Source of the DNA: Spirosoma endbachense
Lineage (GTDB): Bacteria; Bacteroidota; Bacteroidia; Cytophagales; Spirosomataceae
Direction of reading: 5' to 3'
Assembly: GCF_010233585.1 (NCBI RefSeq)
Contig: NZ_CP045997.1
Coordinates: 2,107,237 to 2,171,236, forward strand
DNA length: 64,000 bases
The first letter of the stretch is position 1. The number at the start of each line of letters is the position of its first letter. The position numbers and the translations under genes were made by a program. Positions 20,020-45,888 of this stretch are shown here, in pieces. The notes below the pieces were generated by a model, which saw only the letters and a list, made by a program, of their open reading frames with translations, was not told the origin of the DNA and made no database searches.

Positions 20020-20629
20020 GAGGTCAGAATTAATTTAGTTAGTGTATCAGTTAGGTTATACGGCCGTAGTACTAAGGACTACTCCAATACAAAGTTGCTT
20101 GACACCATCCGCCTGACACTCCCGCACCCTCCTGCTTAAACTATTTTTATTTTATATTGTAATTATTGACAGATCTGCGGCCTTTAGCTTCATGTCACCT
20201 CTATTTACAGGCGCGGGGCAGGTTCACTTTTATTGCGACTACCTACTGATTGACTCTGCGTATTACTCCCCAATACACGAATCGGAGCCGTAGTGAATTA
20301 TAACTAATTTTATCACTTACCTTTTCTATAGAATTATCTGAATGACCACAATAAGGTTAACAATAAGATAATATAGCTCAGTAAATCAATCCTATACCTT
20401 TGTCAGAATTCAACTTTAAGCCTCTTTTCTGCCTTGCGTCACTGGATACTCGAACTGATGAATCTGTTGGCAGGGAATAGCCGTTATGTCAGCTATTCTT
20501 CACGTCAACAGGCTGTATTTGCCCTCATCCTGCTATTCGTCCTGATCACACCCGCGTTGCTGTACTGGTTGCTCTGATCCGCCGTCAGTTCGGGCCTGTA
20601 TCAGCAAATCGTCAGCCAGGAATTGGCTC
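20020..20629. other. 610-bp intergenic region upstream of susC
   Basis: This spacer lies between the divergently spaced ends of the SusC gene (start at 20019) and the GH31 gene (end at 20630), both on the minus strand. The part nearest susC is A+T-rich (20135-20170, about 20320-20400) and should carry its promoter. On the plus strand TACCTTTG (20395-20402) matches the Bacteroidota -7 box TAnnTTTG and precedes a short membrane-protein-like reading frame (20458-20577). I see no strong hairpin behind the GH31 gene. Confidence 0.4.
20458..20577 (+). CDS. possible small single-pass membrane protein (39 aa)
   Basis: ATG at 20458 to TGA at 20575 encodes 39 residues: a polar start (NSRYVSYSSRQQ) followed by a hydrophobic helix (AVFALILLFVLITPALLYWLL) to the end. 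A TAnnTTTG-like box lies 56 bp upstream (20395-20402). The frame stays open upstream without another good start. The organisation (polar N-terminus, one C-terminal helix) is that of a small membrane protein. The ribosome binding site is weak, and it could be a remnant of a larger gene, since an open frame upstream reads as protein-like (LRHWILEL). Existence is uncertain. Confidence 0.3.
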   Translation: MNLLAGNSRYVSYSSRQQAVFALILLFVLITPALLYWLL

Positions 20630-22843: not shown

Positions 22844-22850
22844 CTGGTTC

Positions 22851-22877
22851 TGACGGGTTCTGAATCAGAACCCGTCA
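22851..22877. repeat. 27-bp palindrome between the GH106-type and GH31 genes
   Basis: TGACGGGTTCTGA and its exact reverse complement flank a single central base (22864). The loop is too small for an ordinary RNA hairpin, so this looks more like a protein-binding (operator) site, or a cruciform/terminator with a minimal loop. It lies just upstream of the GH31 start (22843) within a run of minus-strand pectin genes, so it could be the operator of the nearby GntR/LacI-type regulator or a processing hairpin. Confidence 0.5.
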
Positions 22878-22888
22878 TGTCTTGAAAT

Positions 22889-25480: not shown

Positions 25481-25525
25481 TTTTAAGAAATCACCCGTCC
25501 TCTCACCCTGATCATTCATGTACCC

Positions 25526-26842
25526 TTAAGAATTTGTCCTGGCGATTTCTACCGCATATACCTGACTTTCGCCCTCAAAATTGGCCCGAAAAATAACCCA
25601 CTTCCCATCCGGCGAAAAATGGACGTTGGGTTCCAGCTTGTAGTTGTGGTGTTTCATATTGACCAGTCGTTCGGCCCGAAACCTGTCGCCTGCTGGTCTG
25701 AACAGGTAAATCCACATGCCATCGGTTGCTTTCGCTACCTGCCCCGGATCGCCCCCATCGCCAGCAAACAGCGTCTGATCAGGCGATATGTTGAAGTGAA
25801 TCGACCACTCATTTCGGGTCATTTCGTACTGCTTTTCCTGGCCTGTATTCAGGTCCGTTCCAGCCAGAAAAAATGTTACACTACGGGGTTTCTGCAAATC
25901 GAACCAAATGGTTTTCCCATCATGGCTAAAGAACTCATGACCAGCAATCTCGCCATCGACGGTACGTTTGTGCCTTAATTTGACCGCACCCGTTTTCACA
26001 TTGATGGTCCAGATCCGGTCTACCAGATGCCACGGGCCTTCGTGACAAAACATCAGCAAATCGGGCTCTGTGGGTGAGAATTGCACGTGACCCAGCCAGG
26101 TTTTTTCTTCGTGGATCGTAGTCAGTTTACCGGTCTGCGTGTTTATCGTAAAAAGCGAATGCGGAACTTTAGCCTCGAAGATGCGGGGAAAGAAATCTTT
26201 CTTTTCGGGGTATTTGCGAAGTATTTCACGGGCTTCCTCGCCACTACGGCTCCCGGCCAGCATGGTCTCATCAGCGTTGAGGGTGCTGATTGTCGCCTTC
26301 ATATCGGCTGGAAATACAAAAACCAGCCGTGTTTTTTTCGTGTCGATATGGGTAGCAAAAACACTGTCGCGGCTCTGGTAGAACACCTCTCGTCGTTTGG
26401 GGGCAACGATCTCTCCACCTTTCTGCATGAGCGACTTTGTTAACGGTTCAGCCTGACCCGTTTTCAGATTAACCGTATACAATTGGCGGCCATTGGCATC
26501 GGCATGGTAAAACACCATTTTGTCGCCTTCGCCCGCCAGCTCACGCACAAAGGGGTTGTTGTGAAAATAAAAACTTTCGTTGCTTCCGCCGATTGTGGTC
26601 AGCCGCATGAGTTTATGCCCCGTGTCTTTGTCGATCCACGTTGCGGGCATTGGTGTCTGGCCGCCCGTTTCCAGTTTCGGCTGGGCGAATCCATGCTGGG
26701 CTAATCCAACGGAAACCAGCGTCAGAATAGCTAAATTGAATGTCAGCACAATCCGTTTACCAGGAATTGGTCGGCTTACGACCGGAGGCCAACCCTTAAC
26801 CATCAAACGGCTAAAGGCCAGTAGGTGAGAAAAACGTTGCAT
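25526..26842 (-). CDS. ogl-like: PL22 oligogalacturonate lyase, exported
   Basis: The start was set at ATG 26842: the longer frame to 26878 begins with TTG. ATG 26803 is also possible. The signal peptide hydrophobic core is VLTFNLAILTLVSVGLAQ. The rest is a beta-propeller of repeated W-D-like blades, with the PL22 metal-site region (FCHEGPWHLVDRIW, GHEFFSHDG) and C-terminal histidines (MKHHNYKLEPNVHFSPDG). PL22 enzymes split unsaturated digalacturonate and short oligogalacturonates by beta-elimination, using Mn2+. It is the first gene of the PL22-GH106-GH31 run. An export signal is unusual for a family that is often cytoplasmic in enterobacteria, but exported forms occur in Bacteroidota loci. 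Confidence 0.88.
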   Translation of the reverse strand: MQRFSHLLAFSRLMVKGWPPVVSRPIPGKRIVLTFNLAILTLVSVGLAQHGFAQPKLETGGQTPMPATWIDKDTGHKLMRLTTIGGSNESFYFHNNPFVRELAGEGDKMVFYHADANGRQLYTVNLKTGQAEPLTKSLMQKGGEIVAPKRREVFYQSRDSVFATHIDTKKTRLVFVFPADMKATISTLNADETMLAGSRSGEEAREILRKYPEKKDFFPRIFEAKVPHSLFTINTQTGKLTTIHEEKTWLGHVQFSPTEPDLLMFCHEGPWHLVDRIWTINVKTGAVKLRHKRTVDGEIAGHEFFSHDGKTIWFDLQKPRSVTFFLAGTDLNTGQEKQYEMTRNEWSIHFNISPDQTLFAGDGGDPGQVAKATDGMWIYLFRPAGDRFRAERLVNMKHHNYKLEPNVHFSPDGKWVIFRANFEGESQVYAVEIARTNS

Positions 26843-27010
26843 GGCTAAGGTCAGGGAAATTTGCTCACAAAAAAACAACTTAACCCTGACGAACCTTCCT
26901 GTACTCTTCCGTATGCACCGATCCCGATCTTCAACGAAAACCGTGGTATGGCTCCAATTGAAACCCTGGGCAGTTGCCCGTATTGATTGCTCACAAAGTC
27001 ACCTTATGAT

Positions 27011-28765
27011 TCAACCGTCCAAATCCATCAATTGGTCGAAGCCTAAGCCGCTGCTTCCCTCTCCTCGTCCAACAGTCGCTTTGCGGCCAACCCACAGCGC
27101 TACATTTCCCTCTGGTGTCCGGGTTCGCTGGTAGGTCCGGGTAATGAGCTTGCCCGAGCGGGGAACTTCTTCTTCGTGGATGAGATACGGCGCGGTTTCA
27201 TCCAGAATTTCTCCTTTGAACAAAGCCGCCGAATCGGGCATGCGAGCCCGCTGGAGTTGAATATCCCGGTTATTGTTGGGCACATGAACGGGGATGAACG
27301 GGATCCAGTTGTAGGGCACACTGGTCCCGAGTATATACCGGATTTTTGCCGCAGTGGGTAACAACGTAATGGGTGGCGGCAGGGTGGCATTTTGCGCAGC
27401 CAGTGCTGTTTCATAGCCATTAACTCCTCGTCCCAACGGCGACGGAATCACCGATTCAATGGCCCACACCATGTTCGACATCTCATCGCGGATAAAGTTA
27501 ACCTTTTCGATGGGCTGACTTTCTGCGGGTTTACCCAGCGCGGGGGGCAGAAACGACAGCTCAACCGATACATCAGCCTTTGCGTGCTGTCTGAAGAAGC
27601 TCCAGCGTGTCCATTCATGATCGATCGTAGACCCGGCGGACCTGATGTTCGTCCGTTGCCCGAATACATCGGTAACCACTAATCCCCGAATGTTACACAG
27701 CGACCCAATTTTACGCTCATACGGAAAAACACACCAGTCGTTGCTGTAGAGCAGCATGAACTCGGTCATAATCAACTTAATGACATCGGTGGTATTCACG
27801 TCCATCTGTGCAAATTCAATCCGTTCACTTTCCATCTGCCAGAAACGCGGGTTGGGCATTCCCTGAAACGACACGGGAGCCGGAATAAACGACAGGCACT
27901 CATCCAGCGATTTTATCGGTTCAATCGTGTCCCCTTCAGGTGCCTCAAGCTTATTGTCGATATCCACATCAAACGAATACCAGTCCAGTTGGCCGTTTTC
28001 ATACTGCTCCGCCTGCAACACGACCTCAAATCCATTGGAATCATCATCAGCGGCACAGGCAAACTGATATTCCAGATTCGCACCCGTCCAGGCGTTGTCG
28101 GCGTCAGAAAGTGGCTGCGAACTAAATTGGCTCAACCAGGCAATCAGTTCGTTGCCCGCATCTTTCTGTTTTGTCCGATCAGCTACTGAGGTCGTAGTCA
28201 AATCCACCCAGTTCGCATATGAGCCATCGCGAATAGCCTTGACCAATAACCCGCCATTGATGATTTTACCAGCTACGGCTTCGCGGGTTTGATCAGTGTC
28301 TTTGTCATAAGTCGGGTTGGGCTCATCCGCTCGAATAGGATACTGCGTCAGGTGAGCATTTTTGGTGGAAAACACGCCTTGTTTCCGAAGCAGTTTTTCA
28401 AAATATCGTCCAGTACGTACCTGACTGCCCAGATCATCGGGCCAGGCTTCGCGCTCAACGCGGGTTTCGAGCGGGATGTCGTTGGGTAGTGGCTGAGCGG
28501 GTCCTCCCTTAACGGCATACCGATTCAGGTACGTCTGGTGGGTGAGCATTCGGGCGTCGATGGGTGAACCGGCATCTTCGCCGATAAACTCGCCAAATTG
28601 CCACTGCCGTGTAAGCATCCAGAGTGGATCGCGTACTTCGGCACGCAGACTGCGTTCGAAGTCAGCCTGACGCGGACGGCCTTCCAGCCGATTCCAGCCT
28701 TTAATGGCCGGGCGAAACGGAGGCAACTGAAAAAATAAAGGACGTAAATTATCGATATCGGCCAT
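27011..28765 (-). CDS. uncharacterised conserved protein, last gene of giant-protein operon
   Basis: 584 residues, no signal peptide or membrane segment. The distinctive early segment is RDPLWMLTRQWQFGEFIGEDAG, and the middle carries a W-rich part (FEFAQMDVNTTDVIKLIM-like core, DWCVFPYERKIGSLCNIRG). I do not recognise a named family. It follows the 1596-residue gene by 13 bp and is the sixth and last of a co-directional set of leaderless giants. The C-terminus is a basic and glycine-rich tail (WVGRKATVGRGEGSSG). Function unknown. Confidence 0.75.
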   Translation of the reverse strand: MADIDNLRPLFFQLPPFRPAIKGWNRLEGRPRQADFERSLRAEVRDPLWMLTRQWQFGEFIGEDAGSPIDARMLTHQTYLNRYAVKGGPAQPLPNDIPLETRVEREAWPDDLGSQVRTGRYFEKLLRKQGVFSTKNAHLTQYPIRADEPNPTYDKDTDQTREAVAGKIINGGLLVKAIRDGSYANWVDLTTTSVADRTKQKDAGNELIAWLSQFSSQPLSDADNAWTGANLEYQFACAADDDSNGFEVVLQAEQYENGQLDWYSFDVDIDNKLEAPEGDTIEPIKSLDECLSFIPAPVSFQGMPNPRFWQMESERIEFAQMDVNTTDVIKLIMTEFMLLYSNDWCVFPYERKIGSLCNIRGLVVTDVFGQRTNIRSAGSTIDHEWTRWSFFRQHAKADVSVELSFLPPALGKPAESQPIEKVNFIRDEMSNMVWAIESVIPSPLGRGVNGYETALAAQNATLPPPITLLPTAAKIRYILGTSVPYNWIPFIPVHVPNNNRDIQLQRARMPDSAALFKGEILDETAPYLIHEEEVPRSGKLITRTYQRTRTPEGNVALWVGRKATVGRGEGSSGLGFDQLMDLDG

Positions 28766-28778
28766 GGCAATAACGCAG

Positions 28779-31700
28779 TTAATTTTTCAGTAACGTACTC
28801 CCTTTCGTAAAAATCGTGGACAGGCCACCGGTAGAAAAATCATTCAGAACAGCCGGAAGTATCTGAAAATAGCCGGTTGTCGTCAGCATATCGGGTTCAA
28901 CCGCCCGGCGTTTGGCCCGTTCGAGCGTATCGTACAGAATACCAACCAGTTCGTCCCATGTCCATTTACCAGTCAATACGGGTGGCACTGCCAGTAAAAT
29001 GGCCTGTGGTGGCGAGGCATTGGGGCGGTTATAATGGAAAGCGATACCGGTCGTTTCCTGGTCCGTCGGGATCAACTCTGTCCATTCGTCCAGTAACCAG
29101 CCCGCCTGCGGTAGGGTCATATCGGCCGGGGCCTGGTGTACTACAATCGACATTCGCTCCTGATTTCGTTGCGATTCGGAGAAGGTTTCGCCGACCCATT
29201 TCTCACCCGATACCCAGGGCAATTGCAAGGGGGTAAGCTCGAACGGCTGATCCTGATACAAGTCATGGTGCAGGGCCAGCGTTTCCACATTTTCCATCTC
29301 GGGCCTGACACGCGCCACACTCTGTAGCCAGTTTTCCATAACCAGTTCCGGTTCACCGCTGAGCATCTCTTTACTGTGCTCAAGCGCATCGTCCAGCTGA
29401 CTCTGGTTTTGAAATAGAAATCGAGGAATCCAGCTAAACGATTGTCCGTATACCCGACGAGCCACATCCCGACAACGATCTAGTTGCTGATCCGGGCTAA
29501 TCGTCTCAAAACCAGTAAAGTCAACGGTTGCCAATTGCTTCTGAATAGAACTGACCATGCCTTGTGCCTGAGCGAGTAAAGCGTCGGCAATGGGCAGCGA
29601 CGTAGCATCCGTCGAAGTGGGCAGGGCATCGCTCCAGCCGTAATCAGCAATTGCCAGCAAAGCTGCCCGAACCGTATTTAGCGTTCCCGAAGCTACGCTG
29701 GTCAGTTGGTTCGTCCGGGCCGTTGCGATCTCGGTGCTGAGCTGATCAGCAGCCGTTTTCAGGTTCGACGCGCGCGCATTCAGTTCTACACTAGACGCTT
29801 CCAGGTCCGTTTTACAGGTAGCTAAATCCTGATAGCCCGATGGATTCGCAACACCTTCGAGATAGGATTGTGTTTGTGGAAAAAAGTCGAGTGCATGAAG
29901 CGGCCGGGCTTCTGTCACGATCTTTTTCAGGGAACGCAACAGTGGCAGTAAAACCGCAAACGATACACCGTTTGCTCCGGCTTTATGAAAATCAAACGTA
30001 ATGAGTTGCCCATCCGAAATGTTGAAATTCTGCCGAATCTGGAACGTCAGCCACCGCTCGATTTCCGACGAAAGCGCACCCAGCTCAGACCCAGTCATCA
30101 GGACCAGGTCAAGGGGTTGCAGTGAAAATTGAGCGAACGACAGTATGTCATCTACCGCCCCAGCCTGGCACTGAAACTGGATAGACGCGGCCTGTGGAAG
30201 CCGCTGCCCAAGCCAATAGTTGACAAACGGATTCGCTTTGCTGCGGGGCGAAGCCGGACCGCTCCAGGCCGGATGCTGATCATCGACCCCATCGGTTTGC
30301 AAACAAACGGCTACCCGATGCGTAATGGCCGTGCCACTGCGGGGCGTGTCGACGATTTCGGGAGTCGCGGGCATTTTCCCTTCCGAAATAGCCTGCATCA
30401 TGCCGCCCGCCCGGTCGTAGTTGCCATGAACCGCCTGAAATACACTTTCCGACAACGACAGATCAGCGATGGCGTCGAGTGTATCGGTGAGTCGATTCAA
30501 TTCGTCCAGAATGGCCTGTTTTTCAGTCGTTCCGTCGGCTGGCAGACTGGCTATTCCCTGAAGAGTCGGATGAGAGCGGGCGTAGTCCAGCAAGTCATAA
30601 CCATTAATCACATTACGGGCCTCCACGACTTCCTGCGGGGCATTGTCAGGAACGGGCGTTAACTGTTTTGCTGTCAACGGAAACCGATCACGCAAAACGT
30701 AAATATATTGGTTCAGCAACAAGCCCCGATCGTGCAGACCACGCTCAAACTGATACCCCAGCAAAGCCGCCAGCTCCTGCCCATTCCGAATTCCGTCCAG
30801 ATAACTCAGCGCCTGCCGAACCCGCTCCGACGACAGATTGACGGCAAACTGTGCGTTATCATCCCCGTGGGAGAGATACGCGTTACGAAGTAGGGCAGCC
30901 GTTGTCGCATGACGCAACGAGGGGGTCTGGATATGCCCTCCATTGGCGGCATCTTCGTAAATCGTTTTGTTTTTGGAGTCCTGAAGCGGGGCCGGGTATT
31001 GATCCTGCGGAAAACCCGTTTTGGTAGTGTTGGGTCTTAGGTTTTCGACCCATCCATACGCACCCAGATACGTACCTTTTCGCAGGTATTCGTTCTTTTC
31101 GGTATGCTGGAGATTAAAGAGCCGACGCGCGAAAAGTCCGGTTTGCCAGGCATCCAGGCGGTAGCTGCACAAATCAAGGTGTTCGGCAAACAGCCGTTCC
31201 AGCCGGGCAGTAGGCAAACCGCGAAGCGTGCGTAATGCGTCGATCACGCCCATCAAAGGCAACATCTCGGTGGGGCCGTTGTAAGGCTCGCCCGGTTTGG
31301 GAATTAATGTACGTATATATTCGCCAACGGGCATGGCTGTTTGGGAAAGTCGGAGTTTGGCCGCATCCAGTTGAAAATAATCGGCTTTCGTGATATCCTG
31401 CCGTCCTTCCATATTCTGTATCTGGCCCTCAACAGGCAGGTCCTGAAGGAATCGCTGATCAACGAGCCAGTCGGCAATCCGTTGCCCGAATTCTTCCAGA
31501 TAGGCTCGGTGAAGAAGCTGATACAAAAGTGCTTTGGGCGCAGCAACCGGCTGGTTATTCGCATCCAGAAACTGACCATTTCTGATCGTCTGCAAATCAC
31601 TCGTCAGCAGCCAGTCCATGTAATTATCGGTCCCATTGAATGGCTGAATCAACGCCGTTTCCGACAGCGGGGTTCGCGGATCTGCATCGATAACTGGGCC

Positions 31701-33569
31701 ATTCAACGCATCGGTGGCTGACTGAAAAATCAGCTTTTTGAGTAGAAAATCCGTAGCCGCATTGAATCCTAAGGCCGTAAATTGCTGTTCTTTAGCCCGT
31801 TGCAATCTACCCCAAAGTCCTACGGTCTGGGGTGTTAACGTCCGGAAGTTAAGGTAATTCCAGGCATAGCTATCTGTCACGGCCTTACGGGAATGAAAGA
31901 CCACCGACGAAGCCTGTAGGCCTAGTATGTTCATCAGGTTTTCGGGATTACTTCCCTCCTTTCCGGCAAAGGCCACCTGCGGACGAAGTGTTTCCCACTG
32001 GCTTTGTAGCTGCTGTAGAATAGCCAGCAATTTCATCCAGAAATCTTTATCGGTACCCAGCTCGGCGTCGGTAAATTGCCAACTATTAAAGTCACTTGTC
32101 ACCAGCAACCCATACGGCTGATTACCTACCCGAATGGCGGGCAACCCTCCCCTCCCCGTCACGAATTCGGTGAAAAACTGCCGGGCCAGCGCCTGGCGCG
32201 ACCGACTGACCAACGGCTTCAGCAGGTCATTCAGGAACAGCCCCCAGGTGGCAGGCCAGAGCGCATTATTCATGGCCAATGCCTCCCGAACATCGTTCCA
32301 GCCCGCATTGGGCACAAAAGAAACCGACTCATTACTGACACCTAACGCTTCGGCAAACCGCTGACCATCTGACTGTTGGTAGTAATCGTCGACTGGCGAA
32401 AAATAGGGAGTATTTTCTTCTACTTCCTGCTGGCGATCGATCGATGCTGAAGGCCCTGCCGTCGCTTTGTCAGTGTTGTTGGTAGGTGTACCCTGCGGGA
32501 GAATACTAATTCCTTCGGCAGAGTAATTGTGATTCTGAACCAGTTCTTCCAGGAGCTGTTGATTCTGCACGGCGTCAGTACTGAACCGGACACCCAACAC
32601 TACTAACCGATCAAACCCTCTCTGAAACCAGGGACTTGGCAACGTCATTTTAACTGCCATACCCACAGCCAGGGCCTCGTCGAAATCGAACAGCCACGCC
32701 ATTTCCCTACTGTATACCAGTTTATTATCGGCATCGCGCCCGAACGACGATTCCATCTGTAGGGGATCAGGCCCCATCACCAGATAGTCGGGGATGGGAT
32801 TTCCAACCGTTTCCAGCACTTTCCGTACACCCGAGAAAGCCATGACGACAAACTGATTCGGCATCAGCCGCGTGTGGGGGGCCTGCGTCCAGGGTTGAGA
32901 TTTGGGCGTATTCTGCGGTTTCAGAAGCAGTTCGGACAGGGTTCGCCATTGCGCCGACCAGTTAGTCGGCTGTGTTTGCCGGGCTACCCAGGCCGCCCGG
33001 TTCGCACCAAATCGGTTGGCTAACCCATTCCAAAGGGTTGTCCGCTGCTGTTTACTCGCTTCGTCGGTTTCGGTTCGGGTCGCCCAAACCTGTCGCCAGT
33101 AGGTTTCGCCCGACTCGATTTCATCCGCCGTAAGGTCTTTTTCGTGCGTAAACGTCGTGATCTCATCCGGATAAACCCGGACCCAGAGTTCATGCGTATC
33201 GCCCTCCGAATGGAAATGGGTTTCTATTCGAACCGGAAACAGCACAAACGGCAGGTTGTCGGGCATCTGTTCGATCAGCTTTTGTGGCGTAGCATCGAAC
33301 ATGGCCTGATAATCAGCCAACTCCCGCGTCCGACCCTCCAGAACGCCTTTCTTCATTTCCGCCAGATTCTGCTGAGCGCTGTCGATTTCGGCTAAACGCT
33401 GCTTCAAAATCGCGGTATCACTATCCGACAGTTTTCCACGGGCTTTCAACTGCGTCACTTCTTTTTCGAGTGCATTCAGTATGTAAAATTGCTCCACGAC
33501 CTGGCCGTACGCTTTATCCCGCTCAGCGGCCAATTGTGAGGCTTTCTGTTGGATATCTATCAGATTCAT
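28779..33569 (-). CDS. uncharacterised 1596-residue protein with N-terminal coiled coil
   Basis: The largest protein in the window, without signal peptide. Residues about 1-110 form a coiled coil (LNALEKEVTQLKARG, then LAEIDSAQQNLAEMKK). It is followed by a characteristic segment, LPFVLFPVRIETHF then ELWVRVYPDEITTFTHEKDLT (about 105-150). A second helical coiled stretch occurs near 1240-1300 (LNARASNLKTAADQLSTEI). The rest is mixed, with many aromatic residues. I do not recognise a named domain. It sits 11 bp from the 968-residue gene and 13 bp from the 584-residue gene, so the products are probably made together. A structural or scaffold role is suggested by size and coiled coils, as inference. 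Confidence 0.75.
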   Translation of the reverse strand: MNLIDIQQKASQLAAERDKAYGQVVEQFYILNALEKEVTQLKARGKLSDSDTAILKQRLAEIDSAQQNLAEMKKGVLEGRTRELADYQAMFDATPQKLIEQMPDNLPFVLFPVRIETHFHSEGDTHELWVRVYPDEITTFTHEKDLTADEIESGETYWRQVWATRTETDEASKQQRTTLWNGLANRFGANRAAWVARQTQPTNWSAQWRTLSELLLKPQNTPKSQPWTQAPHTRLMPNQFVVMAFSGVRKVLETVGNPIPDYLVMGPDPLQMESSFGRDADNKLVYSREMAWLFDFDEALAVGMAVKMTLPSPWFQRGFDRLVVLGVRFSTDAVQNQQLLEELVQNHNYSAEGISILPQGTPTNNTDKATAGPSASIDRQQEVEENTPYFSPVDDYYQQSDGQRFAEALGVSNESVSFVPNAGWNDVREALAMNNALWPATWGLFLNDLLKPLVSRSRQALARQFFTEFVTGRGGLPAIRVGNQPYGLLVTSDFNSWQFTDAELGTDKDFWMKLLAILQQLQSQWETLRPQVAFAGKEGSNPENLMNILGLQASSVVFHSRKAVTDSYAWNYLNFRTLTPQTVGLWGRLQRAKEQQFTALGFNAATDFLLKKLIFQSATDALNGPVIDADPRTPLSETALIQPFNGTDNYMDWLLTSDLQTIRNGQFLDANNQPVAAPKALLYQLLHRAYLEEFGQRIADWLVDQRFLQDLPVEGQIQNMEGRQDITKADYFQLDAAKLRLSQTAMPVGEYIRTLIPKPGEPYNGPTEMLPLMGVIDALRTLRGLPTARLERLFAEHLDLCSYRLDAWQTGLFARRLFNLQHTEKNEYLRKGTYLGAYGWVENLRPNTTKTGFPQDQYPAPLQDSKNKTIYEDAANGGHIQTPSLRHATTAALLRNAYLSHGDDNAQFAVNLSSERVRQALSYLDGIRNGQELAALLGYQFERGLHDRGLLLNQYIYVLRDRFPLTAKQLTPVPDNAPQEVVEARNVINGYDLLDYARSHPTLQGIASLPADGTTEKQAILDELNRLTDTLDAIADLSLSESVFQAVHGNYDRAGGMMQAISEGKMPATPEIVDTPRSGTAITHRVAVCLQTDGVDDQHPAWSGPASPRSKANPFVNYWLGQRLPQAASIQFQCQAGAVDDILSFAQFSLQPLDLVLMTGSELGALSSEIERWLTFQIRQNFNISDGQLITFDFHKAGANGVSFAVLLPLLRSLKKIVTEARPLHALDFFPQTQSYLEGVANPSGYQDLATCKTDLEASSVELNARASNLKTAADQLSTEIATARTNQLTSVASGTLNTVRAALLAIADYGWSDALPTSTDATSLPIADALLAQAQGMVSSIQKQLATVDFTGFETISPDQQLDRCRDVARRVYGQSFSWIPRFLFQNQSQLDDALEHSKEMLSGEPELVMENWLQSVARVRPEMENVETLALHHDLYQDQPFELTPLQLPWVSGEKWVGETFSESQRNQERMSIVVHQAPADMTLPQAGWLLDEWTELIPTDQETTGIAFHYNRPNASPPQAILLAVPPVLTGKWTWDELVGILYDTLERAKRRAVEPDMLTTTGYFQILPAVLNDFSTGGLSTIFTKGSTLLKN

Positions 33570-33580
33570 AGCGTTAAGAA

Positions 33581-36487
33581 TTAAGGGGCAACAAGGTTTT
33601 TCAGCATTTCGCGGGCATGAACGGCCACCATGACAGGTTTCTGGAAAAGAATGTAAGCCAGGTCTGCCGACTGGGTATTCCAGTCAACGGCATCCGGGTT
33701 CTGACCCGTCAGCGGCTGGACAAACGGTTTGCCCATGTCAATCACCTCCTGCGTATTACCGAGCGTATTCCAGGAAAGGTTGTCCCATTTCTGCGGGCCT
33801 GGGTTTGTAGCAGCTTCGTCATCAAGGCCAAACCGGGGTTCGCCGGGAACCTGCTGAATCACAAAAAACCAGCCTAAATTGTTGTTACCCAGCCGTTGTT
33901 TTTCGGCCGCGGTTTCTTCTTTCACGTCGCCTTTAGCCTGCGGAATTGATAAATCGAAACCGATAAAATGCAGGTCTGGATCGATCTGGGCTTTATAAAT
34001 CGGATTTTTGATATGAACGCCATCGGCTACAGCCTGACCGGTCGTGTCAACCAGTACTAACCGATTGAGGCTGTCCGGCTCTGTACCCCATTGCGCCTGC
34101 TGTGCATAAATAACCGTATTCGGATAGCGTTTGAGCAAGTCACCCCGAATGACCAATACCAGTAACCCGTCTTCGACCTCCGTCAGCCGATGGTTATGGT
34201 CGCCCAGATGGATTTTCTCCGGTGCATTGAATAGCCACTCATTTATAGGCGGAATATCCTTCTGTTTTTCGGCCTGCACTTTCGGCGGTAAAGCAGCAGT
34301 TTGGGTATCTCCAATTGGTTTCCAGAATTGCCGAAAGGGTGTTCCGCGCTGATCGGTAGGGTATTCGCGCCAGAGTAGTTCCCGCATAAACTCGTGATTG
34401 AGCCCGACCATGTATGCCTCAATGAACGGCTGATTCGTTACCATCAGCGACAGCGTATTGGGCAGAATCAGGTTCAGATTCGGTACAAAGAATTCTTTAT
34501 TGATGGCCACCAGCGGCTCATACATGGCATCTCTGATATCGGGGTATGCCATCACCCGATCCAGTTTCGGAACGATTCCGGTGCCCTGGGTAATGCCGGG
34601 CAACACCCGAATCGGGAACGTATTGAGCGGATTGAGCGCATTCATCACCGTTTGGCTGATCACTTTAATGCCTGCGGGCTGCCGAACCGGTGGGGGTATA
34701 ACCTGTTCGACCATCACCTCGTGCAAATTGGTCAGGGCGGTTCTGAACACTTTCGCGACGGCATTATCCCGGTTGATTCGTCGGATGATCGGGGCCTGGG
34801 TCTGGCCGGGAAGAAGAATTTTAAAGTTGCCCCGTGCACCAATGTTTTTGACCGCATCGGCACTGTAATCCAACTGCTTGCCTATTTCTGCTGGCAGCGT
34901 CTGCGCTTCGGACGGAACGACTTTGGCAGGAGCCGCCGTGAGTTTTCCTGTGTTCATTCCCTGAATCAGACCCGTAAAACTCCGGACGGGCGTACTCATC
35001 TCCAATCGTTTGGCCATCAGTCCCCGTGGTCGAACGAGTTTGCGAAAAGCACCACTTACGCTGGCCACCGGCAACAAACTCTGCTGTACCTGAAAATGCA
35101 CCGTTGTGGCTCCATTTCGTACTTTTTTATGAAGCTGTCCCGTCAAAGCAAGCCGAAGCGTATCATCCAGACTGGCCAGATGCTTCAGATGAAGCTGTAT
35201 GCTGGTCAGCATGGCCAACTGCGAGAACCGAATTTTTTGGTTAGCCGACAGTACATCCCCGATCTGTTGCCAGGCTTTGCGCATGTAATCTTCCTGATTT
35301 TTCTGCACCACAAGGGTTCCCATACCTGCCGGAACACGGTAACGCGGGTCCTGATTCAGTTCATGGACCCAGTTTTGTTCGTCAGGTACAAGGCTTAATC
35401 GGCTGATCAGGGCATGCCATTTGCCATACAAAGGGGGCGTAATAACCGGATCGGTGCTGCCATTTGCCTCGCGCACATCTTCCGACAGATTGATGATCGG
35501 CTGTACTTTTTCGGGGAAGTCACTGACCGAATCGAAGGGATAGTTCGGTTTCCGCTCGGTAGTGGGTGCCAGCAAGGCCCCTTCTAACCCAACCGTGTTG
35601 TCGGGCTGAACCGAAATGGCGCCAATGCCAAAACCGGGAGCCTGCATGTCCATATCCCGAATACCGACCCGTTTGTCCATGTCGCGCGGTTGTAGCAACC
35701 GCACCAGCGATTCAAAATCACCACCGACGCCCGTTCGGAAAAACCAGCGATAGTATACCGGATACTCTTTCTCCCCGGTTTCGTCTTTCGCCCACGACAT
35801 GGTAAGTGCCGGGTCCGAATCGTTGACGGCTTCTCCCAAACCCGCTTTTCGCCCAATCTCGAAAGCGGGTATAAGGAACGCATGATAAGCGGTGTTCGGC
35901 TCCAGATGCCGGGGGCACATTAGCCGCGCAATGCCCAGATCGGGCGAGTTACGTAGCAGATTATCCAACTGTGTTAGATTAGGCTGATTACCCGGATGAT
36001 CGATGGGTTCGTTCAGATGCACATGCGCCCAGGCCCATGTATCGGCCGGTGGCGGCAAAACATCGTTTCTGGCAGCCTTTATAGAAATAGCAGGCAAAGG
36101 CCGATTGCCCGTGTTCACATCCGTAAATTCCGTTTCTTTCAGCACGACCAGCGCAATCCACGGGCTGAGCCGATGGTTGTTCTGAACCCGATCAGGCGTG
36201 TATCGCCAGGGAAAATCTTCATCGTAAAACTCAATAAAAGCCAGGTAGTTCGGCTCGAAATCCGTTATCAGATTACGCGGTTCAGTACGCACAATCATCT
36301 GCTGATTGATACCCACGACGTCGCCCGGCCCAATCAGACTGACGGTTTTAGTGATCGGATGAGCCGTGTCGCCATTAACCGTCAGGCTAACGTCCAGTTG
36401 CGCCCGCGACGTAGTAGCTCCCTGAGTGAGTTGATTGACAATGCCCCGGCGTAGCCACGGCAGGAAGGTGTATCGGGCTAAACTCAT
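33581..36487 (-). CDS. uncharacterised 968-residue protein of giant-protein operon
   Basis: 968 residues, no signal peptide. It opens with YTFLPWLRRGIVNQLTQG and a beta-rich segment, SLTVNGDTAHPITKTVSLIG, then mixed sequence with motifs such as YLAFIEFYDEDFPWRYTPD and PWIALVVLKETEF. The C-terminal third has MRELLWREYPTDQRGTPFRQFW and a conserved-looking LHFIGFDLSIPQAKG. I do not recognise a domain. It is 14 bp downstream of the DUF6603-like gene and 11 bp upstream of the 1596-residue gene. Function unknown; a structural part of the same complex is inference from position. Confidence 0.75.
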   Translation of the reverse strand: MSLARYTFLPWLRRGIVNQLTQGATTSRAQLDVSLTVNGDTAHPITKTVSLIGPGDVVGINQQMIVRTEPRNLITDFEPNYLAFIEFYDEDFPWRYTPDRVQNNHRLSPWIALVVLKETEFTDVNTGNRPLPAISIKAARNDVLPPPADTWAWAHVHLNEPIDHPGNQPNLTQLDNLLRNSPDLGIARLMCPRHLEPNTAYHAFLIPAFEIGRKAGLGEAVNDSDPALTMSWAKDETGEKEYPVYYRWFFRTGVGGDFESLVRLLQPRDMDKRVGIRDMDMQAPGFGIGAISVQPDNTVGLEGALLAPTTERKPNYPFDSVSDFPEKVQPIINLSEDVREANGSTDPVITPPLYGKWHALISRLSLVPDEQNWVHELNQDPRYRVPAGMGTLVVQKNQEDYMRKAWQQIGDVLSANQKIRFSQLAMLTSIQLHLKHLASLDDTLRLALTGQLHKKVRNGATTVHFQVQQSLLPVASVSGAFRKLVRPRGLMAKRLEMSTPVRSFTGLIQGMNTGKLTAAPAKVVPSEAQTLPAEIGKQLDYSADAVKNIGARGNFKILLPGQTQAPIIRRINRDNAVAKVFRTALTNLHEVMVEQVIPPPVRQPAGIKVISQTVMNALNPLNTFPIRVLPGITQGTGIVPKLDRVMAYPDIRDAMYEPLVAINKEFFVPNLNLILPNTLSLMVTNQPFIEAYMVGLNHEFMRELLWREYPTDQRGTPFRQFWKPIGDTQTAALPPKVQAEKQKDIPPINEWLFNAPEKIHLGDHNHRLTEVEDGLLVLVIRGDLLKRYPNTVIYAQQAQWGTEPDSLNRLVLVDTTGQAVADGVHIKNPIYKAQIDPDLHFIGFDLSIPQAKGDVKEETAAEKQRLGNNNLGWFFVIQQVPGEPRFGLDDEAATNPGPQKWDNLSWNTLGNTQEVIDMGKPFVQPLTGQNPDAVDWNTQSADLAYILFQKPVMVAVHAREMLKNLVAP

Positions 36488-36501
36488 GATCAGTTCTGGT
36501 G

Positions 36502-39500
36502 TCAGTTAAGTTGGTAGGAAGGAATTACCTGCAATTCGTCGGCTAATCCGGCATCCTGTCGAACAAGGTTATTTAGCGCTTGCCGCGCTTCCGTTTCTGT
36601 GCTAAACACCAGCTGCTGATGCAGTTGCAGCGTATCTGATGTAGCGACGGCAAATGTTTCGGGACGGACCCGAACCGGTTCTGTTCCCAGCACCGATGGT
36701 TTGCGCTGCCCTTCGGCCAATGAGGAGCGAGCGATCGCATTGGTTGACAGATAAAGCCCAAACAGGCTGCGATCAAAAGTCAGGCGTTTCGGTTTTTGTT
36801 TTTCAGGGACATAAATCAGTTCGTAGGCCACATCCAGACCAACCGCATAATCACTCTGTGGCTGCGTCGACCCTCCCACTCGCACTCCTGAATCAAAAGC
36901 CTCAAACGAAGGTCTGGAGAGCTTTTCAGCGTCCGACATCTCAATGAATTGAGCCGGGGCAAACTGCTCTTTTTCGTAGTCTTCATCGGTAGGCGTCGAC
37001 TGGGTATTGCCCACTTTCACGCCCGATATAGCGAATCGTCGTGGACCATCAGGTTGCTGATAACCAAAGCGGGCAATGTCCAGACGCAGGGGTACAATTT
37101 TCTGCGTTACGTTCAGCGTTCCGAACGGATGCAGGATTAGCGCCTGGCCATCCTGCGGCAACTCCCGCAGCGAAACATACTGATTACCAACGGGTAAATC
37201 AAGCCGCCAGTTACCTGATTGGTTGAGGGCTTCCATCAATTTATCGATGACGCGGACCGGGGGGAGCGTATCGGTACGGCGTTCGCCAAACGTTTTGTCG
37301 AAATGGACAGTAATGGTAACGGTAAATATGAAGCCTATTTCAAACGATGCTTCCCCATGCGCATGCCAGGGCGTGGGGCCTTCGAGCGTTAGTTTGAGCT
37401 TGACACTGAACAACGTATGCGATCCCGACCGAACGGCCAGCATTGCGGCTACATCGGCGATGAAATACAGGGGCGAAAACTGAACCAGTACGTCGAGAGA
37501 CAGAAACCCATACACGTTGAAAACGCTGGCGTCGGCGCTCAACTCAATTTTGGCGCCGAACTGAACGGTATTAGACGTAATGGCGAAATACGATTCGGCC
37601 TTAAGACTCGGATTCCCCGAGAAAATAACCAGACTCAGCCGCTTCATGGCAGGAAGCGACATCGGCGGGGGCGTATAGGATGGATGGAACCCGCCGATCG
37701 AAACCAGAAAGTTGGCGTTTTCTTTCCAGTACAGCCGTAAGACCATATCGCCCGTGAGCGTGAACGTCAGAATCCGGGAATTGATCAGCGATGCATCGAA
37801 CGAAATCTGCCCTTTATCGAAATCGACGTAGCCCAGGAAGTTGACCTGAATTTTCACAATGGGTGCCTGTTCCTCGGGTAAATTCATCCGGAGTACACCC
37901 AACAGGGCAAAACCCGGTCGCGGAATTTCGAGCAACAAACCCAGCTCAAGACTGATCAGTGTGGGTGTTCCCCAACCGATCTTAGCCATTGGCCCGATCA
38001 GAAAATGCCCTTGCTGAGGGGGAAAAATCCGTTTGAGGTTACTAACGATACTGGTGGCATTGGCGACAATGTTTTGCGGAAACAGAATCGAATTGAGCGA
38101 ACCGTCATTAACGCCTTTGCGCAGTTCCTCAATCAGATACGTTCGGTTGAGGCCAAGTAGCCCGCCTACCCCGTTAAGTGTAAAACCATACCCGAGCTGA
38201 ATGGGCGTAAACTCGGCTGTAATGATAATCAGCAACGAAAAACCATCGCTGCCATCGGGCATCCGGGTAGTCAGAATCCCGATTGCCTTGAGGGAAATGG
38301 TATCCGAAAACGTAAGCTCGAGTCCGCCCGAGTATTCTTTTTTGGCATCGTCGAAAAACAGAAACCCTCCGCCCGTAAAGCCTCCGCCATTGATCGAAAT
38401 ACCCACGCCCGTTGGGGGTTTGAAGCCCAGATCAATGTCGAATGGTCCGGCATTACCCCGATCGAAGGTCGTGACCAGGGCCAGTCCAATGTTCTGCACT
38501 ACCAGCGTTAGCGGCCCCAATTGTCCTTTAATGCCCGCGCCTATTTCCAGAATAGCGGCTGGTTTGGGATCAGTTTCTCCACGCAGCCGGATGAGTAGTT
38601 CCTCAATGGAAATCGGCCCCAATACCAGATGTGGATGTACGGCCACTTCAAAACCACCCCCGCCCGTAAACTTAATGCCGTTCTTATTTGACCATTCAAA
38701 TCCAAGCGTAAACGGGATTTTCATTTGTCCACTCCCGATGAGTTTCCGAATAAAACTGTCGGCATCGGCGGGATTGAGAATCAGCGCAAAATCGGTCAGC
38801 TTACCACCAATTTTCAGTTCAGGATCACTGCCATTGAACAGGAAACTGAACTCCAGTGAACCTCCTTTCAGTTCGAGACGGGTTCCGTTCTCGCTTCCAA
38901 CCACGGTTTGCGTCTGAACCGGTGCGTACTCCACACCTGCCCCAAAGCCAGCCGAAGGGAGCTGACCGTCCTGAAATGGGTACTTTACCGAGATCTCACC
39001 GGGTCGGATCAAAATGCCGAACAGCGACGCAATGTTAGTGCCGGCCCGGATAATCAGGTTCACATCGTCACGGACCCGCAATGTCGGTAAGGTAATCTCC
39101 GAGGGCAAGGCAGGCTGAATAATGATGCCCGGCAGCTTGGTATCGACAGCTGGCAGGTCTAAAACCGCCAGACCCAGATCCCGATCCTGCCCGGCAATGT
39201 TCAGGTACGCAAAGGCGATGCGGATAAACTGATCGACACGCGGACTGGCAGGATCATCGGGGTCGGCATCAACGTAACGATAGCCGGTGTCGGTATCTAT
39301 GGGTGATAGCGAGACTGGAATCCGCAGCGCATACAGGAGTTCGAGCAGGTGTTCGGCAAACAGCTCGAAATTGAAATTAGGAGTGCCCCATCCGTAAATC
39401 AGTTCAGGAAGTTGATCAGGATGAGTCAGTATCTGCGGAATCTTATCCCAATTCAGTTTCTGTCGGATAAAGGACGGACGGCTACGATCGGCGGTACCGG

Positions 39501-39984
39501 GCACGGCTAGTTGCTCGATGACGCCCGTCATTTTGAAGAAATTGAGCAGAAATGGCCAGGCTATGGTGAGGTAATCGACAACCAGCAATTCGAAAATCCG
39601 CTCCTGAATCTCAGCCAGAAACGTAACCGCATCGTTAACCCCCGGCGGAGTTTCACTGATTGATTCCAGCGCTTCGTATACCGCTTTCACTTTGTCCAGC
39701 ACATTCAGCGCCTTTACCGGGTCAGGATTGGCCATCAGCGCATCCAGTTCGGACAGAGCCTCATCGACCCTGGTGGTCAGGGCCGTAAAAGATGGTGGTA
39801 TGTCGGTGGGTTTCCAGCCCAGCTGGTAGATAAATTGCCGAAAATGAGCCGCGTCACTCACCGCGTCTTTCAACGGACGAACGGCCAGTGCCAGATGCTT
39901 CCCGATCTCTTCTAAAGTACCCATGTCTTCATCAGGATAATAGGACTTTCGCTTCGGGCCGTGCCACGGTTTGTTAACCGTCAT
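36502..39984 (-). CDS. DUF6603-like beta-strand-rich protein (about 1160 residues)
   Basis: No signal peptide. The N-terminal quarter is helical; the middle (about 340-950) is a long series of glycine-rich alternating beta strands (GGGGFEVAVHPHLVLGPISI, LGYGFTLNGVGGLLGLNRT), resembling DUF6603 proteins as I remember them. The end is less regular. Such long strand-rich grooves recall membrane or lipid-binding proteins, but no function is established. The start is uncertain: a GTG at 39999, ATG at 39984 (chosen) and ATG at 39924 are possible, the first two lying inside a long palindrome. The gene follows the M64-like gene by 17-32 bp. Confidence 0.7.
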   Translation of the reverse strand: MTVNKPWHGPKRKSYYPDEDMGTLEEIGKHLALAVRPLKDAVSDAAHFRQFIYQLGWKPTDIPPSFTALTTRVDEALSELDALMANPDPVKALNVLDKVKAVYEALESISETPPGVNDAVTFLAEIQERIFELLVVDYLTIAWPFLLNFFKMTGVIEQLAVPGTADRSRPSFIRQKLNWDKIPQILTHPDQLPELIYGWGTPNFNFELFAEHLLELLYALRIPVSLSPIDTDTGYRYVDADPDDPASPRVDQFIRIAFAYLNIAGQDRDLGLAVLDLPAVDTKLPGIIIQPALPSEITLPTLRVRDDVNLIIRAGTNIASLFGILIRPGEISVKYPFQDGQLPSAGFGAGVEYAPVQTQTVVGSENGTRLELKGGSLEFSFLFNGSDPELKIGGKLTDFALILNPADADSFIRKLIGSGQMKIPFTLGFEWSNKNGIKFTGGGGFEVAVHPHLVLGPISIEELLIRLRGETDPKPAAILEIGAGIKGQLGPLTLVVQNIGLALVTTFDRGNAGPFDIDLGFKPPTGVGISINGGGFTGGGFLFFDDAKKEYSGGLELTFSDTISLKAIGILTTRMPDGSDGFSLLIIITAEFTPIQLGYGFTLNGVGGLLGLNRTYLIEELRKGVNDGSLNSILFPQNIVANATSIVSNLKRIFPPQQGHFLIGPMAKIGWGTPTLISLELGLLLEIPRPGFALLGVLRMNLPEEQAPIVKIQVNFLGYVDFDKGQISFDASLINSRILTFTLTGDMVLRLYWKENANFLVSIGGFHPSYTPPPMSLPAMKRLSLVIFSGNPSLKAESYFAITSNTVQFGAKIELSADASVFNVYGFLSLDVLVQFSPLYFIADVAAMLAVRSGSHTLFSVKLKLTLEGPTPWHAHGEASFEIGFIFTVTITVHFDKTFGERRTDTLPPVRVIDKLMEALNQSGNWRLDLPVGNQYVSLRELPQDGQALILHPFGTLNVTQKIVPLRLDIARFGYQQPDGPRRFAISGVKVGNTQSTPTDEDYEKEQFAPAQFIEMSDAEKLSRPSFEAFDSGVRVGGSTQPQSDYAVGLDVAYELIYVPEKQKPKRLTFDRSLFGLYLSTNAIARSSLAEGQRKPSVLGTEPVRVRPETFAVATSDTLQLHQQLVFSTETEARQALNNLVRQDAGLADELQVIPSYQLN

Positions 39985-40019
39985 CAGGAACCGTGGCACG
40001 GCTCGAAGCGAAAGTCCTA
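39941..40019. repeat. 31-bp inverted repeat forming a gene junction (copy 1 of a palindromic element)
   Basis: The arms 39941-39971 and 39989-40019 are 31 bp with one mismatch, separated by 17 bp. Outer ends are AGGACTTTCGC and its complement; inner ends are GTGCCACGGTT and its complement. The same end and inner blocks occur in the palindrome at 53534-53624, so this is a repeated element. The right arm contains the TAG stop of the M64-like gene (40017-40019) and the left arm and loop hold the start region of the next gene. Probably a mobile or REP-like hairpin that has been absorbed into the operon. Confidence 0.8.
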
Positions 40020-42896: not shown

Positions 42897-42978
42897 ACAA
42901 TAAAGTTGAGTTTAGGAAAAGAAAAGGTAATGTATTCGCTTATAGCGCTTTAGAGCTATTTAGCCAACGGCATTCATT

Positions 42979-45888
42979 TTAATCCGGATAAATTTTCCGT
43001 TTCATGTAATCGGCATCGAAATCACCATGTTTTGTTGGATCGATCTGGTTGACCAGCGTATAGCGGCATACAGCACACAACTCCGTATACTGATCATCGT
43101 CAACCTGTTGACGCATCATGCACTTGGCCGCAGGATGATATACACCACCATGATGCAGATTGCCCCCGCTGTAGAGACCGATGATTTCCTTATCTCTCTT
43201 CGAGCAACAAGGCACTAAATGGCCAGGGATATTCGTGTTATCCGGCGTACGATCAATTACTTCACGGTGTTGATCATCCGTATTGAACGCAAAAGGATTT
43301 ACCAGTAAGTGATTAAGTACTTTCTGGGCTATAATTTCGGCATAGGGATAATCGGCCGATCGCTGCCCTTCAGGCATGGCAATCGGCTCATACACAATGA
43401 TGGCTTCATTCACATCCAGGGTTCGCATGTAGTCGGGCAGGGTAGCGTTTGCCGGACTGGTCAGCGTGAGTCTATTATTGGCAGGATCAGTACTCACGAC
43501 TGTCAGTTCAGCAGAAATAGCCTTCGTAATTAGATCTGGCCCATTGGGTACGGCACCCGCTGTGCGAAATAAGGTCAGCACAGGACCATATCTATTTTCG
43601 GACCGAATCGTAAATCCCGTCCCTGTTTGTAGCGAAGCCGCCTGTCCACGGTCTACCTGAACGATCAACGTATCGGTACCACGACGAAGCGTTACCCGAT
43701 CGTTAGCGACATCAATGGCGGTTATGTCAACAGCGTTTACAAATGCCGCCGGAAGTGGGTTAGGCGTAACAATGGAAGCGATTAATCTATCCTGACCGGT
43801 AGCGCGGGAATGAATAAAATATACGGTGGTATTCCGCCGTCGTTTCCGTAGAAAAACAGGTTTACTGGCGGCAAACTGAGCCGCCTGACCATTCTGCAGC
43901 GTTAGCTCGATTTGATTACCCGTTACGGTGATATTGGTAACGACTCCACACTTCTGAATGCGATGATAGCGCCATTTGATTCGATAGGGCTGAATTTGAG
44001 TGCCTCCACTCGAAACCGGCACTTCCAGGTCAGCCCTGGCCTGAACATTGCTGGACCAATCAACCGCAGAAGCGGCTTTTGTATACTTGGCAAACGACCA
44101 GCCTGAAACCGTTGGATCATCGACCGGTTTATTTTTATAGCTTTCCAGGGGAGGATTCTCCCCGTATTCATCCTCTAACCCAAACGAATGACACAGTTCA
44201 TGGGTAGTGGTTGCTTTTGACTTTATCGGGAGTTTGTCGGGCAAATCAGTTGGCGCAATCGGAACACGCAATGTGGCTAAATCACCGATTAAAACTTCTT
44301 TGGCATTTGAATAAGATGCCTTCTCAACGACGGAGAACATGTATCCTGAACTATTTACAGCCCGCCCCCGACGAATAGCCGATAACACGACAATGTTATC
44401 CCAATCCTTTCCCTGTGGCTGAGTCGGACTCGCCTGCTGAACGAAGGTGGGACCGATCAGGTTGTTTTCATCATCCCTTAATGTACTGAAAAAAGTATCC
44501 AGATCTCCGCGCTGGATTCGCTTAGGGTCCAGACCAATATCACTAAAATCGTTCTCCCTTCTGGCGGCTGTTGTATCCTGAATGGTAACGCCCAAAGCGG
44601 TATCTTTTACCGGAGGCAACCGCCTTTCGCCAAGTCGCTGCCAACTCTTTATCAGCGATTTTTTCGTCTTTAGTTTCTCAATTTCTTCTTCTGTCAGGTG
44701 GGTCGTGGCTTCCCATTTGGTAACTAAGTTATCAATTACGGTCTGGTCATTGGTGTCGCGTTCCGCTCTCACGGGCAACCCGACCCAATACAAGAGGTGC
44801 TCAATGCCCCAGTCGTCGACTGGTTTATTCTGATCTCTTTCAATAAATGGAATCGGACGCCCCGTTAACCTGGGCAGAATTGGTTCGTTCGGTTTCCGGC
44901 GTACTGCCAAATCGCCCAGATAGGTCGCTCCGCTTTCGCGCGAAGGAATAAAAATCATCCAGAAATTGATCGAGCCTCGAAGCAGATTGAACGGTGCGGT
45001 AATTTTATTGCTCATCAAATCTTTGACATAATCTGCAACCAGAATTTTAAAGTTGAATTCCTGTTCGAGCGTAAACCCTTCGGACAAAAAGAGAATATTA
45101 GGCACTTCATTCAATCGGGGAAAGCCTGGGCACCCACCCGTTGCCACTAATTCGGCCTGTATGGGTGAATTGGCTACCAAATTCTCCGATACCATGATCA
45201 GACTGGCCGCCGTTTGCGTGACCCCATCGTAAGCAACCGATACATTCAGATCGTGAATACCGGTTATAGTCTGGGCCCGGATCGAGCCGTTGGCCGGATC
45301 TACTAAAGTAGGGGTAGGCGAATTCCAGCTTATATCGAGCGGGGGATCAATATTAAACAGAGCATTACGATAACGCTGATTACCGATTTCAGCAATAACA
45401 TCGTCGTCAAAACGCCCATGCAGTCGAGCCTGATGCGTAACACCAGGCGTAATGGTTAAACCCGCAGGCGTAATCCATACCTCTTCGATTCTAGTGTGAA
45501 TATGAATTCGTAATGCCGTCCAGTTGCTGGAATTATCAGCCGCATTCTCGACTTCGGCGTATAAGTAAAAGTTACGAACTTGGTTTTGTGCAGCAGCGGG
45601 CTCATTCTCGTCCAACGTGATTAGCCAGTCAGGTTTCCGATCAAACGCATGATCATGCTCGACTGGATTCTCAACGGTTATGCCAAAATCATTGGCCTTA
45701 TCCTCGTCGAAGCTGGTCCAGAATGTATAGCTAATATCATGGTGATTATCGACATAATCGTGAGCAAAATCTCCCCCAATTCTTAGTAAGGTTGCAAAGG
45801 CATTTGTTGCATTGACGATTTGGAACGATTGCCCCCGAAGCAGATGAATGTCGTAGGGTGGTTCAAAATTGATAGCTGGAGCCGGCAT
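42979..45888 (-). CDS. M64-like zinc metallopeptidase, leaderless (copy B), first gene of giant-protein operon
   Basis: 969 residues, no signal peptide, with the same plan as its downstream paralogue: PPYDIHLLRGQS opening, Ig-like half, NEVPNILFLSEGFT, and zinc motif THELCHSFGLEDEYGE (His563, Glu564, His567, Asp573). The C-terminal Cys region (VPCCSKRDKE, YHPAAKCMM, CAVC) is also shared. The two differ throughout, so the duplication is old. It begins the run of six giants with a 326-bp upstream spacer, which should carry the operon promoter, and is 82 bp from copy A. Confidence 0.85.
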   Translation of the reverse strand: MPAPAINFEPPYDIHLLRGQSFQIVNATNAFATLLRIGGDFAHDYVDNHHDISYTFWTSFDEDKANDFGITVENPVEHDHAFDRKPDWLITLDENEPAAAQNQVRNFYLYAEVENAADNSSNWTALRIHIHTRIEEVWITPAGLTITPGVTHQARLHGRFDDDVIAEIGNQRYRNALFNIDPPLDISWNSPTPTLVDPANGSIRAQTITGIHDLNVSVAYDGVTQTAASLIMVSENLVANSPIQAELVATGGCPGFPRLNEVPNILFLSEGFTLEQEFNFKILVADYVKDLMSNKITAPFNLLRGSINFWMIFIPSRESGATYLGDLAVRRKPNEPILPRLTGRPIPFIERDQNKPVDDWGIEHLLYWVGLPVRAERDTNDQTVIDNLVTKWEATTHLTEEEIEKLKTKKSLIKSWQRLGERRLPPVKDTALGVTIQDTTAARRENDFSDIGLDPKRIQRGDLDTFFSTLRDDENNLIGPTFVQQASPTQPQGKDWDNIVVLSAIRRGRAVNSSGYMFSVVEKASYSNAKEVLIGDLATLRVPIAPTDLPDKLPIKSKATTTHELCHSFGLEDEYGENPPLESYKNKPVDDPTVSGWSFAKYTKAASAVDWSSNVQARADLEVPVSSGGTQIQPYRIKWRYHRIQKCGVVTNITVTGNQIELTLQNGQAAQFAASKPVFLRKRRRNTTVYFIHSRATGQDRLIASIVTPNPLPAAFVNAVDITAIDVANDRVTLRRGTDTLIVQVDRGQAASLQTGTGFTIRSENRYGPVLTLFRTAGAVPNGPDLITKAISAELTVVSTDPANNRLTLTSPANATLPDYMRTLDVNEAIIVYEPIAMPEGQRSADYPYAEIIAQKVLNHLLVNPFAFNTDDQHREVIDRTPDNTNIPGHLVPCCSKRDKEIIGLYSGGNLHHGGVYHPAAKCMMRQQVDDDQYTELCAVCRYTLVNQIDPTKHGDFDADYMKRKIYPD

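Follow-up and report, generated by a model that had tools for sequence, protein, structure and literature searches.

What are six adjacent genes for very large proteins, none with a recognisable export leader, doing together in one bacterial operon? The question is raised by a stretch of 64,000 nucleotides (the window) from the genome of Spirosoma endbachense, a single contig of 10.3 Mb, in which six co-directional open reading frames (ORFs), here called M1, M2, P3, P4, P5 and P6 in gene order, lie on the minus strand (Table 1). The answer that we favour, with slightly less than even confidence, is that P3 to P6 form the constant chassis of an undescribed modular enzyme carrier, probably membrane-active, whose enzyme is exchangeable and is encoded in a variable slot before P3. 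A carrier would be expected to show such a layout, with a core that stays constant beside an enzyme that varies, and here a cassette of ~4,300 residues keeps its gene order over many phyla of bacteria and in haloarchaea, three of its four families being without a Pfam model, a credible sequence match to a solved structure or a paper that we could find.

The six-gene operon

A first-pass annotation of the window had described six packed genes encoding about 6,240 residues, and this holds: the ORFs total 6,241 amino acids (aa), and the gaps between them, from M1 to P6, are 82, 17, 14, 11 and 13 bp, the second being the spacing between M2 and P3. Its two M64 paralogues are likewise borne out, with M1 scoring 35.2 bits against the Pfam M64 family (PF09471; E 1e-8, cut-off 26 bits) and M2 scoring 18.1 bits, below that cut-off, and with the zinc-binding HExxHxxG kept in both (HELCHSFG at residue 563 of M1, HELLHSFG at residue 542 of M2). 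The pair differs from the solved M64 chains in length (~960 aa compared to 407–409 aa), and is further set apart by the lack of a signal peptide in the crude hydropathy test used throughout and by its tie to the cassette. The protein first noted as DUF6603-like is a full member of that family (P3 against PF20248: E 2.3e-135, 452.5 bits, cut-off 27), which Pfam itself enters as a family of unknown function. No signal-like start was found in any of the six by the crude test, in line with what had been proposed, nor a transmembrane-like window, nor a nucleoside triphosphatase (NTPase) or sensor domain by Pfam.

For the remaining three, P4, P5 and P6, searches of Pfam, NCBIfam and PHROGs gave nothing significant, in agreement with their first description as unrecognised families. 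Alignments of P6 (57 members), P4 (47) and P5 (25) gave no Pfam family in more than two members (best E 0.002), and comparison of the three families with solved chains gave no credible match (best E 0.17), so that the profile searches placed them in no described family or structure searched. Nor did the literature searched yield a paper describing the P4-P6 cassette or its enzyme slot. Relatives are nevertheless numerous, with 5307 for P4 among 8000 candidates scored (the closest named one, from Spirosoma harenae, is 84% identical) and 104 for P6 in named genomes, of which the best 80 were kept. The structure model of P6 has a mean pLDDT of 80.

A constant chassis and its spread

Loci were drawn from the P6 matches (best 80 of 104; loci and genomes carry our L and G numbers), and the genomes of 47 of these 80 loci were used for counts of DUF6603 and of the tail described below. 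Since gene calling by a longest-ORF script misses genes where the DNA is rich in GC (P4 in L017 and the slot enzymes of L112 and L126), we relied on tblastn counts. P4, P5 and P6 lie on one strand in all 69 loci with 9 kb or more of sequence before P6, and in P4-P5-P6 order in 68 of them; the usual layout is seen in 67, while L070 has P3 last and L075 is permuted. P3 is visible in 46 of the 69, and falls outside the available piece in the other 23. When considering genomes, DUF6603 is found in 47 of 47 carriers compared to none of 14 controls, and lies within 3 kb of P4 in 43 of the 47, no single piece spanning both genes in the other four. The three unrecognised families are thus co-inherited across phyla. 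The first-pass annotation had also taken all six genes as a unit, and here it did not stand: P3 to P6 persist under a changing slot, therefore the six are not one fixed unit, and judging from the sequences the slot is variable, the M64 pair being one of its several occupants.

The titles of the P6 relatives (best 80 of 104) name Bacteroidota, Chloroflexota, Cyanobacteria, Proteobacteria, Aminicenantes, Actinomycetes, Paenibacillus, Nitrospirae, Acidobacteria and others, and the carriers include haloarchaeal plasmids. P5 relatives occur in 13 plasmid records; all four chassis genes are on plasmids of Natrinema, Salinigranum and Rhizobium, and partial chassis on those of Streptomyces (P3-P5) and Gemmatirosa (P4-P6). 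The cassette is rare and patchy in its distribution: P6 is present in 4 of the 148 Bacteroidota drawn (counting the window's genome) and in 3 of 149 from the phylum of the Streptomyces G175 (counting G175, with one match partial), and DUF6603 is present in 9 of the 148 Bacteroidota (8 above the cut-off), including all 4 with P6. A phage origin was rejected, as a scan of viral contigs yielded 15 stretches that fit the pattern but no relative. One record titled 'Bacteriophage sp.' (L087, MT835531, an UNVERIFIED faecal scaffold) has relatives of P3, P5 and P6, and is probably mislabelled bacterial DNA.

A second DUF6603 layout is found at loci from the four further above-cut-off Bacteroidota genomes and at L138 (L128-L132, L138), in which the protein next after DUF6603, intact in some loci and split in others, has a P4-like N-terminal part (94% probability, E 1e-7 over 201 columns, with a profile from only six sequences). 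Relatives of P5 and P6 are absent from this layout, and its third large protein is not detectably P5-like. An enzyme again precedes DUF6603 in two of these loci, with a class 3 lipase immediately before it in L138 and a metallo-beta-lactamase-fold protein in that place in L130.

The variable slot before P3

Direct Pfam matches identify M64 peptidases, PhoD phosphatases, S8 subtilases, NAL1/trypsin-like proteases, phospholipase D (PLD), tyrosinase and M15 peptidase in the slot, and several slot genes have no Pfam match; the classes as we use them mix direct matches with kinship by BLAST, M2, L144, L146 and L048 being under the Pfam cut-offs. A motif check found GDSGS in 9 of the 10 trypsin-type genes listed (L108 is without it), the PhoD pattern in 9/10 and HKD in 3/3, and patterns of our own making for the S8 serine and for tyrosinase in 2/6 and 0/2, respectively. 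The slot gene is at most 40 bp from P3 or overlaps it in 39 of the 45 loci with a slot gene on the same strand (two duplicates dropped). There is usually one enzyme per operon, and in the permuted operons L070 and L075 it is still directly before P3. Trypsin-type genes are found after P6 instead in two genomes, and two chassis copies, each beside a different slot gene, in two genomes as well (G153, G173; L123/L124, L103/L122). In L092 (9459-12765, plus strand) a galactose/glyoxal-oxidase-like Kelch protein and a tyrosinase lie 1 bp apart before P3, and in Niabella (L118, 6060-8053, minus strand) the slot gene for PhoD is split, its pieces being 381 and 283 aa long, and so are P4 and P5, which reflects either broken genes or sequencing errors.

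Slot types were placed on a quick tree of P3 with 48 rows, 41 of them with a classed slot enzyme; two of its branches are long (L075, L116), 22 of its rows have an odd composition, and the trypsin labels for L101 and L103 come from genes after P6. The tree omits loci that lack a slot gene or are cut, duplicates, loci of the second layout, L120 (an unclassed slot gene) and L100/L105 (where M64 was detected solely by tblastn). On it the slot type changes at least 20 times, compared to a lowest conceivable number of 7 and to 31.8 with shuffled labels, so types have been swapped again and again, but not without constraint. In a fully supported clade of nine actinomycetes, for instance, three slots are of M64 type, three of trypsin type, two of S8 type and one of PLD type.

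Such a pattern has to be weighed against a neighbourhood without partnership, in which a mobile four-gene cassette merely tends to settle behind enzyme genes. The patchy spread and the plasmids would suit this, as would the five chassis loci in which no slot enzyme was found (L083, L084, L117, L135, L142), but the tight spacing, the recurrence of the same enzyme classes and the place kept before P3 in L070 and L075 argue for a partnership, and we give the idea of mere settlement very little credence. That core and slot work together we consider likely.

Export leaders and the shared tail

By the crude hydropathy rule, signal-like starts are found in 0/108 P4, 0/85 P5, 0/76 P6, 3/64 P3 and 6/47 slot proteins, compared to 169/638 other ORFs (some genes are counted twice because loci overlap); among the nine positives, solely the slot gene of L120 resembles a true signal peptide by eye. 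Chassis and slot proteins are thus, on this crude test, without recognisable signal peptides. This bears on a nutritional, cellulosome-like complex, in which the chassis would be displayed outside the cell and hold one degradative enzyme on its substrate. Hydrolases make up most of the classed slot enzymes, the type varies, and Kelch propellers are found on the actinomycete P3 proteins tested (2/2), all of which would fit; the lack of signal peptides, of any Pfam match to dockerin or cohesin in the six proteins, and of more than one enzyme in the usual operon make such a complex quite improbable.

Some slot enzymes share a tail of ~130 C-terminal residues, found in 4/6 S8 and 14/15 trypsin-type enzymes (11/12 of the listed genes and 3/3 in L057), with likeness between the two classes down to a BLAST E of 7e-15. 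A profile of this tail matches 18/18 of its seed sequences and no other of 1678 ORFs, and no Pfam match was found within the tail in the tail-bearing slot enzymes scanned. In the 47 carrier genomes it finds 17 copies, spread over 12 genomes, and each is one of the same operon proteins, so this search shows no further copies and lends no independent support; in the 148 Bacteroidota it finds two, one on a slot enzyme and one on a NAL1-like protein, and there is none in the window's genome. From its sequence, the tail is the best candidate sign of docking, but not for the M64 enzymes. The NAL1-like, tail-bearing protease (L150, 9379-10791, minus strand) lies among what we take to be integrase-like and patatin-like genes.

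A small domain on unrelated effectors, trypsin-like ones included, is also described for the effector-associated domains of bacterial conflict systems (PMC8195603). The tail here differs in being C-terminal, ~130 residues long and without a Pfam match, and the chassis has no recognised NTPase. This brings in the main rival to a carrier, namely an intracellular conflict or cell-death system, in which the chassis would sense an invader or stress and free the enzyme on its own cell, with the tail acting like an effector-associated helical adaptor. The leaderless slot enzymes, the single tail on two unrelated protease types, the large genomes of many carriers and the match of one S8 slot enzyme elsewhere to the PADLOC subtilase model (E 8e-18) all agree with it. 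None of the six window proteins matches PADLOC, a sensor domain is missing as well as an NTPase by Pfam, and tyrosinase and PhoD would be unusual as effectors, and we thus regard it as rather unlikely.

The predicted beta-meander of P3

The model of P3 has a helical N-terminus followed by 40 predicted beta strands across residues 257-904, a long predicted beta-meander in which hydropathy alternates 3.2 times as much as in shuffled sequence. The nearest solved structures are SprA (the type 9 secretion translocon), SlpA, LptD, ushers, porins and apolipoprotein B (ApoB), with SprA ranked first by Foldseek. The first-pass annotation had seen no transport domain in the operon, which stands by Pfam and is qualified by these membrane barrels and ApoB. 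From such neighbours a membrane role for P3 is plausible, as far as a model can suggest it. P3 differs from SprA, the porins, LptD and the ushers in an overall template modelling (TM) score of 0.13, in having no signal peptide and in being present in cells without an outer membrane, and as to whether the meander closes into a barrel, its matches come with low TM and large root-mean-square deviation (rmsd). It is loosely like the beta belt of ApoB-100 (a eukaryotic protein, rmsd 10.5 A, 10% identity), which might point to a lipid-binding particle that is not exported but stays in the cytoplasm, as a store of lipid or other hydrophobic material and of an enzyme. The scores of SprA and many porins come close to that of ApoB (Z within about 1-2), Foldseek places SprA first, and the range of enzyme types is a poor fit for a store, so we hold this very improbable.

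Two side observations concern the architecture of DUF6603 proteins: those of actinomycetes end in a Kelch propeller in both cases scanned (L104, L142), with Kelch-like genes beside others, and that of L117 is a P3 with a long N-terminal extension, without an enzyme match in the extension.

A proposed enzyme carrier

What the sequences hold, namely a conserved cassette, a variable slot with repeated change of enzyme, a tail common to S8 and trypsin-type enzymes and an absence of signal peptides recognisable by the crude test, together with a predicted membrane-like sheet, points to an enzyme carrier. In the mechanism we propose, P3-P4-P5-P6 would be the constant chassis, with the exchangeable enzyme encoded by the gene that precedes P3 (in the window, by the M64 pair). 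The proteins, lacking signal peptides, would be expressed from a packed operon and come together in the cytoplasm, where the shared tail would dock some enzymes, while others, the M64 pair included, would dock by their own folds. The meander of P3 would insert into or wrap lipid, and the loaded particle, freed by lysis or along an unconventional route, might then act on a membrane outside the producer or pass through it. The physical complex, docking, membrane action, release and target are what we infer. A physical complex of core and slot enzyme seems to us fairly probable, and delivery onto or across a foreign membrane a possibility that we would put well short of even. The first-pass idea of a single large assembly of undescribed make-up survives in part, as the unknowns are co-inherited, leaderless and without a described family or solved structure; its core is four genes, not six.

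Several observations weigh against this proposal. The P3 model has a pTM of only 0.45, its whole superposition on solved structures is poor (Foldseek TM 0.06-0.15 and rmsd about 20 A or more among the matches listed), and the alternation measure is non-specific, a SusC-like protein scoring only 1.8. The slot gene is unclassed in seven of the 48 rows of the tree, five chassis loci have no slot enzyme found, and swapping is not free. The tail is absent from the M64, PhoD, PLD and tyrosinase types, and one copy, that of L150, comes from a genome in which no DUF6603 and no P6 were detected.

Extracellular contractile injection systems and Tc toxins are modular carriers with a constant apparatus, a changing enzyme and large proteins without signal peptides, a layout to which this one may be likened. 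Contractile injection parts (sheath, tube, baseplate, ATPase) are absent from the six proteins by PHROG at E 1 and by Pfam, in a check that covered these proteins and not the flanking window genes, and credible Pfam scores were solely to M64 and DUF6603; neither were Tc toxin domains (TcA, TcB, TcC) found among the six at E 1 by Pfam. At its furthest, the proposal would add a new class of protein-delivery particle in Bacteria and haloarchaea, in which four leaderless giants, lacking any ATPase or sheath that is recognised, would take up one of many unrelated enzymes and bring this cargo to or across a target membrane via a giant beta-sheet pore or lipid belt. We consider this somewhat unlikely.

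Table 1. Genes of the operon, by position in the window
Gene	Description	Position	Strand	Evidence
M1	M64-type metallopeptidase, leaderless, 969 aa, variable slot	42979..45888	-	ORF, PF09471, HExxHxxG
M2	Second M64-type protein, 959 aa, slot gene immediately before P3	40017..42896	-	ORF, HExxHxxG
P3	DUF6603 protein, 1165 aa, chassis	36502..39999	-	PF20248, model, structure matches
P4	968 aa, no Pfam family, chassis	33581..36487	-	Relatives, second-layout kinship
P5	1596 aa, no significant Pfam family, chassis	28779..33569	-	P4-P5-P6 co-occurrence
P6	584 aa, no Pfam family, chassis	27011..28765	-	Relatives, structure model

Neighbouring genes

Further genes follow P6 on the same strand (16834-26878, minus strand), the gaps to the first three being 132, 6 and 45 bp. 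They look to us like a cluster for the use of polysaccharides, in which we presume a SusC-like receptor as well as glycoside hydrolases. Signal-like starts are present in three of the four tested, and the genes are therefore probably a unit separate from the operon. On the other side, a 1403-aa protein (48367-52578, plus strand) contains a block of ~250 residues twice, almost letter for letter, probably as carbohydrate-binding domains by our assumption, which reflects a recent internal duplication.
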